Positions 4,360 through 39,401 of a DNA stretch of 64,000 nt are shown here, one piece after another. Made by a program: the position numbers and the translations under genes. How positions within the stretch are numbered: the first letter of the stretch is position 1; every line of letters begins with the position of its first letter. Source of the DNA: Desulfuromonadales bacterium (lineage in GTDB: Bacteria; Desulfobacterota; Desulfuromonadia; Desulfuromonadales; Geopsychrobacteraceae); contig JAHYIY010000001.1 in the NCBI GenBank assembly GCA_019429255.1, positions 1-64,000 on the forward strand. The letters run 5' to 3'. The notes below the pieces were generated by a model. It searched no databases and had not been told where the DNA came from. It saw nothing but the letters and a program-made list of their open reading frames with translations.

Positions 4360-5250
4360 ATGCAGACACTCCAAAGCATGGAGCGCAAGCTCAAGAGTGC
4401 AGACGACCTGTATACCGTAGTACGGACGATGAAGTCCCTGGCCGCGGTCAGCATTCGTCAGTACGAAGAGGCGACCCGTTCTCTTGAGGAATATTTTCAT
4501 TGTGTTGAAATGGGGCTGCGGGCTGCTTTGCGAACTCACCCTCACAGCGGCCGCCAGCAAGACCCACGGACTACCCTGATCGTCGTTTTTGGTTCGGATC
4601 AGGGCATGGCGGGACGCTTCAATGAAGCACTCATTGAATTTGTCCAGGAACACCTCGATCCTCAAAAAGAGCGGATCCTGATCTGGGTCAGCGGAATCAA
4701 GATGCATGGGCTGGTCGAAGATGCCTTCGGTGAGATCCAGCACCTGTTCCCCCTGCCCTCTTCGGCCGAGGGAATCTCCACCAGGGTTCAGGAAATCCTG
4801 CTGCATTTTAGCGAACTCCGCGAAAAGGAAGGTGAGTCGCGGCTGATCCTCTTCCATAATCAACCGGCAGGAGGATCAACCTATCGGCAGAACCGCGTCA
4901 ACCTCCTGCCGCCCGACCAGCAGTGGCTGCAAGACCTCGGCGGTGGAAAATGGCCGGGACGGCAGATTCCCCTTTATACCATCCCCTGGGAAGATCTTTT
5001 CAGCGCCCTGATTGGTGAATATCTCTTTGTCGCCCTGTTCCGCGCTTTTGCAGCTTCCATGGCGGCAGAAAATGCGGCGCGTCTGACCTCGATGCAGAGG
5101 GCCGAAAAAAATATCGAGGAAACCAAGGAAGAATTGAAGCTGCGCTATCACACCATGAGACAGAATGCCATCTCAGAGGAGCTGTTCGATGTCATTTCAG
5201 GGTTTGAAGCTTTGACCCAAAGTGAAAGAGACCAGGGACTATGCCCTTGA
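4360..5250 (+). CDS. atpG: F1 subunit gamma of the N-type ATPase
   Basis: The central-stalk subunit of 296 residues. The N-terminal helix (MERKLKSADDLYTVVRTMKSL) and the C-terminal helix (AAENAARLTSMQRAEKNIEE...ISEELFDVISGFEAL) form the coiled coil of the rotor shaft. Sequence divergence in the middle is typical for N-ATPase gamma. It is the last gene of the operon; the next gene begins 47 bp later and is unrelated to the ATPase. Confidence 0.92.
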   Translation: MQTLQSMERKLKSADDLYTVVRTMKSLAAVSIRQYEEATRSLEEYFHCVEMGLRAALRTHPHSGRQQDPRTTLIVVFGSDQGMAGRFNEALIEFVQEHLDPQKERILIWVSGIKMHGLVEDAFGEIQHLFPLPSSAEGISTRVQEILLHFSELREKEGESRLILFHNQPAGGSTYRQNRVNLLPPDQQWLQDLGGGKWPGRQIPLYTIPWEDLFSALIGEYLFVALFRAFAASMAAENAARLTSMQRAEKNIEETKEELKLRYHTMRQNAISEELFDVISGFEALTQSERDQGLCP

Positions 5251-34378: not shown

Positions 34379-36007
34379 TCAGTTACCTGCCATGATTGCA
34401 GCTACGTCGCCGGCAACATCACCAATCGGTTTGATGTCGAAATTTTCCACCAGCACTTTGGCAACGTTTGGCGACAGGAAGGCCGGCAATGTCGGTCCCA
34501 GACGGATATGCTTTACCCCTAGAGCGAGCAGGGCGAGGAGCACGACGACCGCTTTCTGCTCGTACCAGGCGATATCGTAGGAAATCGGCAGATCGTTGAT
34601 ATCCTCCAGACCAAAGACTTCCTTGAGCTGTAACGCTATGAAGGCCAGTGAATAGGAATCGTTACACTGACCGGCATCCAGAACCCGCGGGATACCGCCG
34701 ATGTCGCCAAGGTTGAGTTTGTTGTAGCGATATTTGGCGCAGCCGGCGGTCAAAATCACCGTATCATTAGGCAACGCCTCGGCCACCTCGGTGAAGTAGC
34801 TGCGTCCGGCCTGACGCCCGTCACAGCCGGCCATGACAACAAAGCGCTTGAGGGCGCCGGACTTGACGGCGTCAACAACCTTGTCGGCCAGGGCCATGAC
34901 CTGGGCATGGGCAAATCCGCCAACGATGGCGCCGGTCTCGATCTCGGTCGGGGCGGCACAGGTCTTCGCCTTGGCAATGATTTCCGAGAAATCCTTGGCG
35001 CCACCTTCGAGACGGTCGGCGATATGGGTTGCGCCCGGCCAACCGGCCATACCGGTGGTGTAAATGCGATCCTTATAGGCCTCTTTAACCGGGGTAATAC
35101 AGTTGGTGGTCATCAGAATCGGGCCGTTAAAGGAAGTGAACTCCTTGTCCTGCAACCACCAGGCGTTGCCGTAATTACCGACAAAATGATCGTACTGCTT
35201 AAAGGCTGGATAATAGTTGGCCGGCAGCATTTCACTGTGGGTATAAACATCAACACCGGTGCCTGCGGTCTGTTTGAGCAGTTCTTCCATGTCCTTGAGA
35301 TCATGGCCGGAGATCAGAATACCGGGGTTGTTGCGGACACCAATGTTGACACTGGTGATTTCCGGATTGCCGTAGGTGGTGGTATTGGCCTCATCGAGCA
35401 GGGCCATGGTCGTCACCGCAACCTCACCACATTTAAGCACCTGACCGACCATTTCATCGACACTCAAATCACGGGTGGTCGTAGCAAGGGCGGAAATCAT
35501 GAAATCGTAGATTTCCGGCTTCTCAAAACCGAGCACTGCAGCGTGATCAGCGTAAGCCGCCATCCCCTTGAGACCATAGATCAGCAACTCACGCAGAGAG
35601 CGCACATCTTCGTTAGCCTGCGACAATACTCCGACCTCGGCGGCCTTGGCAGCATAGCTGCTTTCAGGACCATTCCAGTTGAGGACATCGAGATCACTGC
35701 TATAGCCGATGGCCAGTTTCAAAGCATCGCGTTTGGAGATCGATGCCTTGATCAGATCAACAAAGCGGGCGTTATCAAAGTTGGCATTGGTAATAGTGGC
35801 AAAGAAGCTCTGGCAGATGAACAACCCGACAGAAGAATCCAACTTGTTTTGTTTCTTTGCTTCCTCGGCAACAACTGCCAGGCCTTTAAGGGTGTAGACC
35901 AGCAGATCCTGCAGACCGGCAGTATCTTCCTTTTTGCCACATACACCGGCGATGGTGCAGCCGCTTCCTTTTGCTGTTTCCTGACACTGGTAACAGAACA
36001 TACTCAT
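34379..36007 (-). CDS. hcp: hybrid cluster protein (hydroxylamine/NO reductase Hcp)
   Basis: The 542-residue protein begins with the Fe-S cysteines C5, C8, C17 and C23 ([21 protein letters not shown]). It keeps the hybrid-cluster ligands in [27 protein letters not shown] and [11 protein letters not shown]. Hcp reduces hydroxylamine in vitro and handles nitric oxide under anaerobic nitrosative stress. ATG 36007 follows AAGGAGAGCG. No hcr reductase gene adjoins it. Instead a four-gene cassette is divergent from it across a region with two FNR/CRP-type boxes. Confidence 0.95.
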
Positions 36008-36093
36008 AAAACGCTCTCCTTTTTTGATGGTTATAGATTATTGCTCCTGATGTTGCTTGTATGCAACAGTGCCGCAACCCGGATAAAAAAAAA

Positions 36094-36107
36094 TTGACAC
36101 AGATCAA
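36094..36107. promoter_or_regulatory. FNR/CRP-type box near hcp
   Basis: TTGACACAGATCAA fits the TTGAC-N4-ATCAA pattern of FNR/DNR/HcpR-type regulators. It lies 87 bases upstream of the hcp start codon. No clear hcp -10 is positioned to decide between activation and repression. Confidence 0.6.
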
Positions 36108-36137
36108 AAGCGTAACAGAAAAATATTTTTTTTCTTC

Positions 36138-36151
36138 TTGACCTGAATCAA
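36138..36151. promoter_or_regulatory. FNR/CRP-type box at -41.5 of the cassette promoter
   Basis: TTGACCTGAATCAA fits the same TTGAC-N4-ATCAA pattern. Its centre lies 41.5 bases before the start expected from the -10 TATACT at 36174-36179, the classical position for class II activation by FNR-family proteins. Confidence 0.65.
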
Positions 36152-36173
36152 TTTAATTCAGCCACACTGCCCC

Positions 36174-36179
36174 TATACT
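36174..36179 (+). promoter_or_regulatory. -10 element of the cassette promoter
   Basis: TATACT without a good -35 (the FNR-type box occupies that place) fits an activator-dependent promoter. The predicted start is near 36186, giving a 23-base leader with AAGGAG before ATG 36209. Confidence 0.55.
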
Positions 36180-36208
36180 CAGGCTCACATCAGCTAAGGA
36201 GAGCCAAA

Positions 36209-37441
36209 ATGACGACGATGACCCTGAACAAAGACATGACAATTAAAGATATTCTGCAACACTGGCCGGAAACCCTCGATGTGTTCGTGGCCAACGGCTT
36301 TGATAGCTTTCGTGACGAAACACAGCGCAATGCTATCGCCCCTTATCTCAAACTGGAACGCGCCGCCCAGATGAAAAATTATGATCTGAACAACTTCATG
36401 ACTCTGTTGCGTGACCAGATTGCCCTTAACAGTCACCAGACCGACATCACCATGAAAAAAACCGATCACGGCAACGCTGATATTCGTATTGCCGGACTGC
36501 TTCCCTGCCCGGTGCGCTTGCCGCTATTGGAAAGTTTTGATGCTTTTATCGAAAAGTTTACCGCCGAAACCGGCCGGCGCGTCAGCTACAAGCTCGAAGC
36601 GGCTTCGGTCGGTGCTGACTGGATTGCTGCGAACATTCGCGGCATTGAAGATGCAGACAAACTTCCTGACATCTTTATCTCTGCCGGATTTGAAACTTTC
36701 TTCGACCAGAAAACCATTGGCCGTTTTAAGGATCAGGGGGTGTTTGAGGACATCTGCGGCGCTGCCGTCAACCCGGATTTTGCCGGTCTTGATATCCGTG
36801 ATCCCAAGGGCGACTACTCAATTGTAGCAGCGGTTGCTGCAGTCTTCATGATCAACCATGACGTGCGTGGCGACCTGCCGATTCCACGGCGCTGGAGCGA
36901 TCTGTTAGAACCCGAATTCGCCCAGCAAGTGGCGCTGCCGGTCGGTGACTTTGATCTGTTTAACGCCCTGTTGCTGGCGATCCACAAGGAGCACGGGGAG
37001 GAGGGGGTAAAAAAACTCGGACGCTGCATGCTCAAATCAATGCACCCGTCACAGATGGTGAAAAATGCCAAACGGGTCAGCGAGGCTAAACCCTATGTTA
37101 CCATCATGCCGTACTTTTTCACCAAAATGGCGCGCATGGTCGAAGGGCTTGAGATCATCTGGCCGGAAGATGGTGCCGTTGTCAGCCCGATATTCATGTT
37201 GACCAAGCGTTCTACCCTCAACAAGACCCGACCCATTGCCGAGTTTTTGAGCGGTCGTGGGGTCGGCGAAATGCTCTCCCACAAAGGACTGTTTCCCTCC
37301 CTGCACCCGGAAGTGGACAACCGGCTCAACTTCGAGCATCCGTGGAAATGGATCGGCTGGGACTACATCTATCAGCACGATATCGGCACCCTGATCCATG
37401 ACACCAACAAAATATTTGAAGATGCCCTCGGCATCGATTGA
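36209..37441 (+). CDS. cytosolic DUF1858 plus substrate-binding-protein fusion
   Basis: The 410-residue protein starts with a DUF1858-like helical domain (about 8-75, TIKDILQHWPETLDVFVANG). A periplasmic-binding-protein fold of the Fe3+/spermidine type follows (about 90-400, IAGLLPCPVRLPLLESFDAF, IFISAGFETFFD). There is no signal peptide or lipobox, so unlike true transport proteins it should stay in the cytoplasm. It leads a four-gene unit with a GTPase, an ATPase and a zinc ribbon, and no permease. A role in binding a small ligand or metal for an intracellular assembly reaction is inference. A single Cys in LLPCPVR is notable. Confidence 0.8.
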   Translation: MTTMTLNKDMTIKDILQHWPETLDVFVANGFDSFRDETQRNAIAPYLKLERAAQMKNYDLNNFMTLLRDQIALNSHQTDITMKKTDHGNADIRIAGLLPCPVRLPLLESFDAFIEKFTAETGRRVSYKLEAASVGADWIAANIRGIEDADKLPDIFISAGFETFFDQKTIGRFKDQGVFEDICGAAVNPDFAGLDIRDPKGDYSIVAAVAAVFMINHDVRGDLPIPRRWSDLLEPEFAQQVALPVGDFDLFNALLLAIHKEHGEEGVKKLGRCMLKSMHPSQMVKNAKRVSEAKPYVTIMPYFFTKMARMVEGLEIIWPEDGAVVSPIFMLTKRSTLNKTRPIAEFLSGRGVGEMLSHKGLFPSLHPEVDNRLNFEHPWKWIGWDYIYQHDIGTLIHDTNKIFEDALGID

Positions 37442-37453
37442 AGGAGTTAAATC

Positions 37454-38149
37454 GTGCGTTTTTTAACCGTTTCCGGCCCCCCATCATCCGGCAAAACGTC
37501 TGTCATCCTGAGGGTGATTGAGGCCCTGCAGGCACGTATGCACAAAATCGGCGTGGTCAAGTTCGACTGCCTGCTGACCGACGATGACACCCTCTATGCG
37601 AAAAAAGGGGTGCTGGTAAAAAAAGGGCTCTCCGGCGCCCTGTGCCCCGACCACTATTTTGTCAGCAATATCGAGGCCTGTGTCACCTGGGGCAAAGAGA
37701 ACGGTTGCGAATATCTGATCAGTGAAAGCGCCGGTCTGTGCAACCGCTGTTCACCCCACATCAACGACATTACTGCCATCTGTGTTATCGACAATCTGAG
37801 TGGCGTCAATACACCACGCAAAATCGGTCCGATGCTGAAATCCGCCGATATCGTCGTCATCACCAAGGGCGATATCGTCTCCCAGGCCGAACGCGAGGTG
37901 TTTGCCTCCCGGGTCAAGCAGGTCAATCCCGGTGCCGTCATCATGAACATCAACGGCATCACCGGCCAGGGGGCGTTTGAACTGACCAGTCTGTTTGAAA
38001 CGGCCTCCGACATCGACACCCTTAAAGGCAAAACCTTGCGTTTCTCCATGCCGGCCGCCCTGTGCTCCTATTGTCTCGGTGAAACCCGCATCGGCGACGA
38101 ATATCAAACCGGCAATGTCCGCAAGATGGACATGGAGGACAATAAATGA
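37454..38149 (+). CDS. HypB/UreG/CobW-like P-loop GTPase with two CxxC pairs
   Basis: The 231-residue protein has the P-loop GPPSSGKT (8-15), a HypB/UreG-like switch ESAGLCNRCSPH and a G4-like ITKGD. Two cysteine pairs, C96/C99 (CNRC) and C204/C207 (CSYC), suggest metal binding. GTPases of this class insert nickel or cobalt into enzymes, or act on Fe-S proteins. The start is GTG 37454 after GAAGGAG, 12 bases after the preceding stop. It overlaps the ATPase gene by ATGA, so expression is coupled. The partner enzyme is not proven; Hcp is the nearest metalloenzyme. Confidence 0.8.
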   Translation: MRFLTVSGPPSSGKTSVILRVIEALQARMHKIGVVKFDCLLTDDDTLYAKKGVLVKKGLSGALCPDHYFVSNIEACVTWGKENGCEYLISESAGLCNRCSPHINDITAICVIDNLSGVNTPRKIGPMLKSADIVVITKGDIVSQAEREVFASRVKQVNPGAVIMNINGITGQGAFELTSLFETASDIDTLKGKTLRFSMPAALCSYCLGETRIGDEYQTGNVRKMDMEDNK

Positions 38150-39144
38150 GACACGTCGCCCTGTATCAACAGCCCCTAACCACCACTCTGGCAGATCATC
38201 CCTACATTGAGGACTTCCTGTCCTCATTTGGACTGCCGGTTGCTGCAAGCAACAACAGTCTTGAGCACTACCTTGACCAGTTGAACCCCGACTTGCTTGA
38301 GGACCTGGGCTTAAGCCGCGAACAACTGCAACGCAGCCTCGATGATTTTCTCAACGGCATGCTGGCGTTGCGCAAACCCCTCGACAAAGTCGAGTCCCTG
38401 ACGATCATCGGGGGTCATAATAAATCAGGTGAAGCTGAAGAGGTTGAACTGACCCTGCAACCGGGAGAGGTGACCTGCATCGTTGGCCCCACCGGCTCAG
38501 GCAAAAGCCGCCTGCTCGCCGACATCGAATGGGTTGCTCAAGGAGACACCCCAACGGGACGCAAGATCCTGATTAACGATCAGGTACCGGACAGCCAATG
38601 GCGTTTTTCTACCGAACATAAACTGGTGGCGCAACTGTCACAAAATATGAATTTTGTTATGGATCTGACAGCCGAGGAATTTATCCAGATGCATGCTGAA
38701 AGCCGTCTGGTGACCAATCCGCAGGAAAAAGTCGCCCAAATCCTGGAACAGGCCAATATGTTGGCCGGCGAGCAGTTTTGTCCTGATACGCCGGTCACCG
38801 CCCTCAGCGGCGGTCAGTCGCGGGCGCTGATGATCGCCGATATGGCGTTTCTGAGCAAGTCCCCTATTGCCCTGATAGATGAAATTGAAAATGCCGGGAT
38901 TGATCGGAAAAAAGCCCTGAACCTGCTGATCCGTGAAGAAAAAATTGTTCTGATGGCGACCCATGATCCAATTCTGGCACTGATGGGTGATCGCCGCCTG
39001 GTGATTAAAAACGGCGGCATCGCCAAGGTTATCAAAGCGAACGAGGCCGAACGTCGCAATCTGCAGCGTTTGGAAGAAATGGACAATCAACTCCTGGCGT
39101 TACGCAACCGGATCCGCTCCGGCGAAACCCTGGAACAACTTTAA
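38146..39144 (+). CDS. stand-alone ABC-type ATPase
   Basis: The 332-residue protein has an N-terminal helical part of about 85 residues not usual in transport ATPases. An ABC domain follows with Walker A GPTGSGKS (114-121), signature LSGGQSRALMIA (from 220), Walker B IALIDEIEN and H-loop LMATHDP. A coiled C-terminal tail (AERRNLQRLEEMDNQLLALR) ends it. No membrane protein is encoded nearby, so it probably powers a soluble process rather than transport. It is translationally coupled to the GTPase. Confidence 0.82.
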   Translation: MRHVALYQQPLTTTLADHPYIEDFLSSFGLPVAASNNSLEHYLDQLNPDLLEDLGLSREQLQRSLDDFLNGMLALRKPLDKVESLTIIGGHNKSGEAEEVELTLQPGEVTCIVGPTGSGKSRLLADIEWVAQGDTPTGRKILINDQVPDSQWRFSTEHKLVAQLSQNMNFVMDLTAEEFIQMHAESRLVTNPQEKVAQILEQANMLAGEQFCPDTPVTALSGGQSRALMIADMAFLSKSPIALIDEIENAGIDRKKALNLLIREEKIVLMATHDPILALMGDRRLVIKNGGIAKVIKANEAERRNLQRLEEMDNQLLALRNRIRSGETLEQL

Positions 39145-39155
39145 AGGAGCAGATA

Positions 39156-39401
39156 ATGATGCACGACGGCTGTCAAGGTCAGGTTGGCGATGGTGCAAAA
39201 GTGGTAGACAAGTTACGGATGATGGGTTTTTCCAACTACAGTCTGCCGCAAGAGGTTGAGCTCATCTGTAGTGGCTGTGATCAGAATTTTACCATGGCGA
39301 CCCTGGAGTGTCGCTGCCCGCATTGCGGCATGGTTTACGGCGTTACCCCCTGCCATGCCCATGATACCAAAAGTATCCAAGCTGCTGGAATTGACTATTG
39401 A
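39156..39401 (+). CDS. small zinc-ribbon protein of the hcp-linked cassette
   Basis: This 81-residue protein has a C-terminal cysteine array: CSGCDQNFTM, then CRCPHCG, then CHAHD, enough ligands for one or two zinc or iron sites. The N-terminal half has few marks. ATG 39156 follows AAAGGAG, 11 bases after the ATPase stop. I do not recognise a named family. As the last gene of the cassette it may be a metal carrier or adaptor. Confidence 0.72.
   Translation: MMHDGCQGQVGDGAKVVDKLRMMGFSNYSLPQEVELICSGCDQNFTMATLECRCPHCGMVYGVTPCHAHDTKSIQAAGIDY

Follow-up and report, generated by a model that had tools for sequence, protein, structure and literature searches.

The intergenic region between hcp, the gene for the hybrid cluster protein, and a divergent four-gene cassette, both located in a 64-kb stretch of DNA from a Desulfuromonadales bacterium (the window, analyzed at its full length), raises the question of whether one regulator could control both transcription units, and through what promoter arrangement. 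In the whole window the only exact matches to TTGAC-N4-ATCAA were TTGACACAGATCAA and TTGACCTGAATCAA, which have centres 44 bp apart and are termed here the distal and proximal box, respectively (Table 1), as returned by a zero-mismatch search of the 64 kb with TTGACNNNNATCAA. The pair had been reported in a first-pass annotation with the same motif and separation, and both are confirmed. Genome-wide, 19 exact sites were counted versus three for a backward control, which is imperfect in that it contains rare words; as the control is biased and most of the other sites are intragenic, we consider genome-wide enrichment to be weak evidence and do not rely on it. The hcp gene is single-copy in the source genome (G000). 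A possible second hcp with a box of its own, suggested by a match to the Prismane profile, was rejected since the match is a different protein, a 650-aa CODH-like protein (L200:472-2424, on G000 contig C59).

Table 1. Features of the hcp–cassette divergon, in window coordinates; transcription starts and class II roles are predicted.
Feature	Position	Strand	Remarks
hcp, hybrid cluster protein, 542 aa	34379..36007	-	NF003658 840 bits, TIGR01703 754 bits
-10-like hexamer CACTGT, hcp	36066..36071	-	29.5 bp from distal box centre; predicted start 36059
Distal box TTGACACAGATCAA	36094..36107	.	Centre 36100.5; predicted class II (-41.5) site of hcp; minus-strand reading TTGATCTGTGTCAA
Proximal box TTGACCTGAATCAA	36138..36151	.	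Centre 36144.5; predicted class II (-41.5) site of cassette
-10 hexamer TATACT, cassette promoter	36174..36179	+	First base 29.5 bp after proximal box centre; predicted start 36186
Shine-Dalgarno-like AAGGAG, cassette gene 1	36196..36201	+	From sequence; conserved in relatives
Cassette gene 1, DUF1858 + SBP_bac_6 protein, 410 aa	36209..37441	+	Signal peptide not apparent
Cassette gene 2, CobW/HypB-like GTPase	37454..38149	+	Conserved C39, C64, C96-N-R-C99, C110, C204-S-Y-C207
Cassette gene 3, ABC-type ATPase	38146..39144	+	Without adjoining permease
Cassette gene 4, 81-aa Cys-rich protein	39156..39401	+	Two CxxC; no Pfam family

To predict the cassette start, the hexamer TATACT was set at -12 to -7, which places the proximal box at -41.5. 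This agrees with the position given to the second box in the first-pass annotation, as does its statement that the cassette promoter has no -35 of its own, given that no sigma-70 -35/-10 pair was found in positions 35990-36240. The annotation also described the first box as lying nearer hcp, which is correct but underread it: toward hcp, the distal box is likewise at -41.5 of a predicted start, and based on the position of CACTGT at 29.5 bp from its centre, hcp and the cassette each appear to own a class II site. The combination of a box at -41.5 from a predicted start, a -10 and no -35 is that of class II CRP/FNR-dependent promoters. The -10 of hcp is weak, which counts against the model. Nevertheless, we think it very probable that the region consists of two separate back-to-back class II promoters which an HcpR1-type regulator activates in response to NO or nitrite. 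In each of them a single 14-bp CRP/FNR-type box, with its centre at -41.5 relative to the predicted start, would replace the -35, with the proximal box driving the cassette and the distal box driving hcp.

The arrangement was compared across 13 orthologous loci from relatives and our own (14 in total), with each box aligned with its own gene. Both boxes were kept in 12 of the 13 relatives, and hence in 13 of 14 intergenic regions when our own is included, the conservation in close relatives on which the first-pass annotation had staked its reading. The proximal box was TTGAYYTGNRTCAA at 13 of the 14 loci, the exception being L041 with TTGACTTAGATCAA. Of the 14 cassette promoters, 11 had a hexamer fitting NANNNT at the exact 29.5-bp offset, against a mean of 1.1 when all offsets are considered; for divergent hcp promoters the figures were 10 of 13 and 1.1, and for promoters of hcp genes that stand alone elsewhere in the order, 10 of 11 and 0.9. 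These counts come from related genomes and are not independent trials. At the remaining three cassette promoters the hexamer was one base off. The -10 sequences themselves differ among loci while their offset is constant, and in the three same-genus species with the divergon (including our own) the boxes stand out as nearly identical blocks amid an otherwise diverged region. The motif search at other hcp genes that the annotation had proposed was also borne out, in that the motif accompanies hcp throughout the order, with the same geometry where hcp stands alone.

The centre-to-centre distance between the boxes was 40–47 bp in nine loci and 138–264 bp in four, a spread that rules out the fixed spacing of a cooperative or looping layout, since a fixed inter-box distance is evidently not required. 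In a sister species (G003; loci L027/L131) hcp has been relocated, and the cassette upstream retains the proximal box without the distal one; the relocated hcp has its own box, with CAGTGT at the same 29.5-bp offset. As judged from these alignments, the two boxes are independent units, each travelling with its own gene. A further rearrangement was observed in G005 (L030 and L133), where ~3.9 kb foreign to the divergon separates hcp from the cassette, an hcp-type box persists beside the cassette and hcp has another box of its own.

Six cNMP-binding proteins were found in the source genome, three of them with a recognised CRP-type helix-turn-helix (HTH). The candidate regulator among these is a 226-aa protein (G000:C26:131-811, hereafter the C26 regulator) with recognition residues Ser180-Glu181 and P. 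aeruginosa DNR as its closest solved structure; its open frame has three cysteines, in which the canonical FNR Fe-S motif is not apparent. The other two full-length CRP-type regulators have Arg180-Glu181; for the C61 regulator (R-E at 180-181) the open frame is 272 aa and 10 cysteines were counted. In delta-proteobacterial HcpR, according to PMC1274295, Ser/Pro180 goes with TTGAC-N4-GTCAA and Arg180 with TGTGA. Among the types that the first-pass annotation had named (HcpR, DNR or FNR), HcpR1, a type close to DNR, is the best fit, since no regulator other than C26 was found in the genome to have the specificity residues predicted; a canonical [4Fe-4S] FNR was not recognised. The C26 regulator has the features of an HcpR1-type regulator, namely membership of the CRP/FNR family near DNR, Ser180 with Glu181 and no apparent FNR cysteine motif, and we infer that it is HcpR1-like from these residues and its likeness to DNR. 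Orthologues were identified in 21 of 25 genomes searched, including our own, with residues 180-181 being S-E in 18, G-E in two and P-E in one, and in G030 hcp and the orthologue are arranged tail to tail. Four drafts (G002, G009, G010 and G011) yielded no copy of the gene, which may reflect missing contigs or incomplete assemblies; G002, G010 and G011 have the twin boxes all the same. The C26 regulator is the protein most likely to bind both boxes, and would activate hcp and the cassette on NO or nitrite stress.

A genome scan identified the cassette in many phyla. Among the 80 loci read, most have retained the order SBP-GTPase-ATPase-81-aa protein; a few were cut by a contig end or had no match to the 81-aa protein. 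The hcp gene adjoins the cassette in 17 of 18 Desulfuromonadales loci, and in ten others it lies downstream on the same strand. Upstream of the cassette we found TTGAC/ATCAA in Deferribacterota, GTAAC-N4-GTTAC in Bacteroidota, Fusobacteriota and Tissierella, and GTTGT-N4-ACAAC in some clostridia. Outside Desulfuromonadota, 28 of 52 upstreams combined a dyad with a -10 placed at the expected distance, compared to 1.65 ± 1.28 in shuffles (maximum 6), although chance probably accounts for a few of the 28 and related species contribute many. Recognition residues encoded by CRP genes in the same loci match the boxes: P-E occurs with TTGAC (L063), R-P with GTAAC (L123, L125, Bacteroidota) and R-S with GTTGT (L104, L108, L122). 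The box type of hcp was also the same as that of the cassette in the same genome in Deferribacterota (5/5, one with a mismatch), Bacteroidota (2/2), Fusobacteriota (2/2) and Tissierella; at three of the five Deferribacterota hcp genes the hexamer at exactly 29.5 bp scores poorly. These comparisons suggest that outside the order the cassette promoter often carries the box expected for the lineage's HcpR type, at the same offset. Together with the conserved boxes and offsets in the 14 loci, such lineage-matched boxes support the joint control of hcp and cassette that the first-pass annotation had envisaged.

In the Spirochaetota that were read, hcp mostly had GTAAC boxes and an Rrf2 gene lay immediately before the cassette. 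The cassette of Cloacimonadota is preceded by a cupin gene, accompanied in one case by an Rrf2 gene. At five spirochaete loci (L072, L073, L074, L102 and L106) with an Rrf2-family gene upstream, a GGTAY-N4-GTACC-like dyad was seen near the cassette start codon; this dyad is possibly the Rrf2 site.

Of the alternatives to this model, the one that survives best, and which we nonetheless regard as unlikely, is that a different CRP/FNR regulator, such as an oxygen-responsive FNR, occupies the boxes and that the pair reports anaerobiosis rather than NO. TTGAC/ATCAA is equally close to the FNR/DNR box TTGAT-N4-ATCAA and to the HcpR1 consensus, and the three drafts with twin boxes but no candidate regulator would be consistent with a different binding protein. 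Arguing against it are the R-E residues of the only other full-length Crp-type-HTH regulators recognised in the source genome, for which a TGTGA-type site is predicted, and the finding that inspection by eye picked out no canonical FNR cysteine cluster among its six cNMP-binding proteins; moreover, the motif follows hcp across the order, and the motif switches in other phyla go with the HcpR type. It is considerably less probable that the boxes serve as operators at which a repressor keeps both promoters shut until NO releases it, as could be proposed by analogy with D. desulfuricans HcpR2, which has been modelled as an hcp repressor (PMC5701242), given that a position of -41.5 without a -35 is a class II activator layout and that the weak -10 elements need help. 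That only one box works, the other being a chance match or, in the case of the distal TTGACA (a perfect -35 hexamer), an ordinary -35, can be dismissed with near certainty, because there is no -10 at 16–18 nt from TTGACA, relatives show TTGACG or TTGACC in its place, and both boxes are conserved, each moving with its own gene.

HcpR boxes at hcp are already known, and the two boxes of the back-to-back promoters described here join a known regulon type. In the HcpR1 regulon of delta-proteobacteria (Rodionov 2004, 2005; PMC545781, PMC1274295), an FNR-like TTGAC-N4-GTCAA box lies upstream of hcp, as it does here, and the regulator has Ser/Pro180 and Glu181 (PMC1274295), which the C26 candidate shares (S180/E181). 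Table 10 of PMC545781 (2004) includes a Desulfuromonas divergon, hcp1/?-frdX2-?, whose two sites lie 45 bp from each other; the divergent partner in our window is the SBP/GTPase/ATPase/81-aa cassette, which is not named in the parts of these papers that were covered. The half-sites here also differ from the HcpR1 consensus in being mixed, TTGAC/TTGAT; the dyad has the form TTGAY-N4-RTCAA, and in this genome TTGAC/ATCAA is one base of ten off the symmetric TTGAC/GTCAA. The HcpR2 regulon of clostridia, Bacteroides and Thermotogales has GTAAC-N4-GTTAC (PMC1274295), the motif that we found at the same offset on both the cassette and hcp of Bacteroidota, Fusobacteriota and Tissierella. It represents another regulator branch and another box than those in the window, where TTGAC/ATCAA and a candidate with Glu181 stand in place of GTAAC-N4-GTTAC and Pro181. 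Class II promoters of E. coli FNR and P. aeruginosa DNR (TTGAT-N4-ATCAA at -41.5) have the same box length, geometry and missing -35, but the box sequence here differs and, unlike FNR, the C26 candidate has no apparent canonical Fe-S cysteine motif. In the literature searched, which covered few subscription journals, we found neither a description of the cassette nor a report of it as a recurrent HcpR target, of the class II reading of both promoters, or of the recurrence across phyla.

The cassette proteins (36209-39401) are cytosolic by sequence, have no adjoining permease and combine invariant cysteines with strong cross-phylum conservation. Of 19 genomes tested that bear the cassette, 18 have a true Hcp, while hcp was found in 25 of 25 genomes searched and the cassette in 17 of 41. 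Since hcp is near-universal alongside the cassette and many relatives with hcp have no cassette, the cassette is not required for every Hcp; rather, it seems that the cassette needs Hcp or the same stress. Our guess is that, when NO stress sets in, it helps to look after metal or Fe-S clusters. A probable third target of the regulator is a cupin gene (G000:C34:5228-5578; L192, L204) with the box TTGATCCGAATCAA at 5136-5149 and TAGTTT at the same offset, a geometry of box and -10 kept in the three same-genus species. In D. desulfuricans the cupin gene Ddes_1828, beside hcp, is NO-induced (log2 4.4, compared to 3.17 for hcp; PMC5701242). Boxes that likewise have a -10-like hexamer at this offset occur in two more intergenic places, G000:C14:6048-6061, before a 460-aa protein of membrane type, and G000:C59:24158-24171, before a short frame resembling a sigma factor.

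We are evenly divided on the broader proposal that many anaerobes have in the cassette a core part of their nitrosative-stress response that has gone unrecognised, one that serves the metal clusters in Hcp, or other clusters damaged by NO, and is kept under the NO-type regulator of each lineage, be it HcpR1, HcpR2, the Ser181 type or an adjoining Rrf2 gene. With the assignments presented here, a four-gene block that had not been characterised becomes a predicted partner of Hcp in the defence against nitric oxide; the block is conserved from Desulfuromonadales to Deferribacterota, Spirochaetota, Bacteroidota, Cloacimonadota, Fusobacteriota and clostridia. The assignments also offer a test of how regulator and box co-evolve, in which the box shifts with the recognition residues and neither the target genes nor the -41.5 geometry changes.
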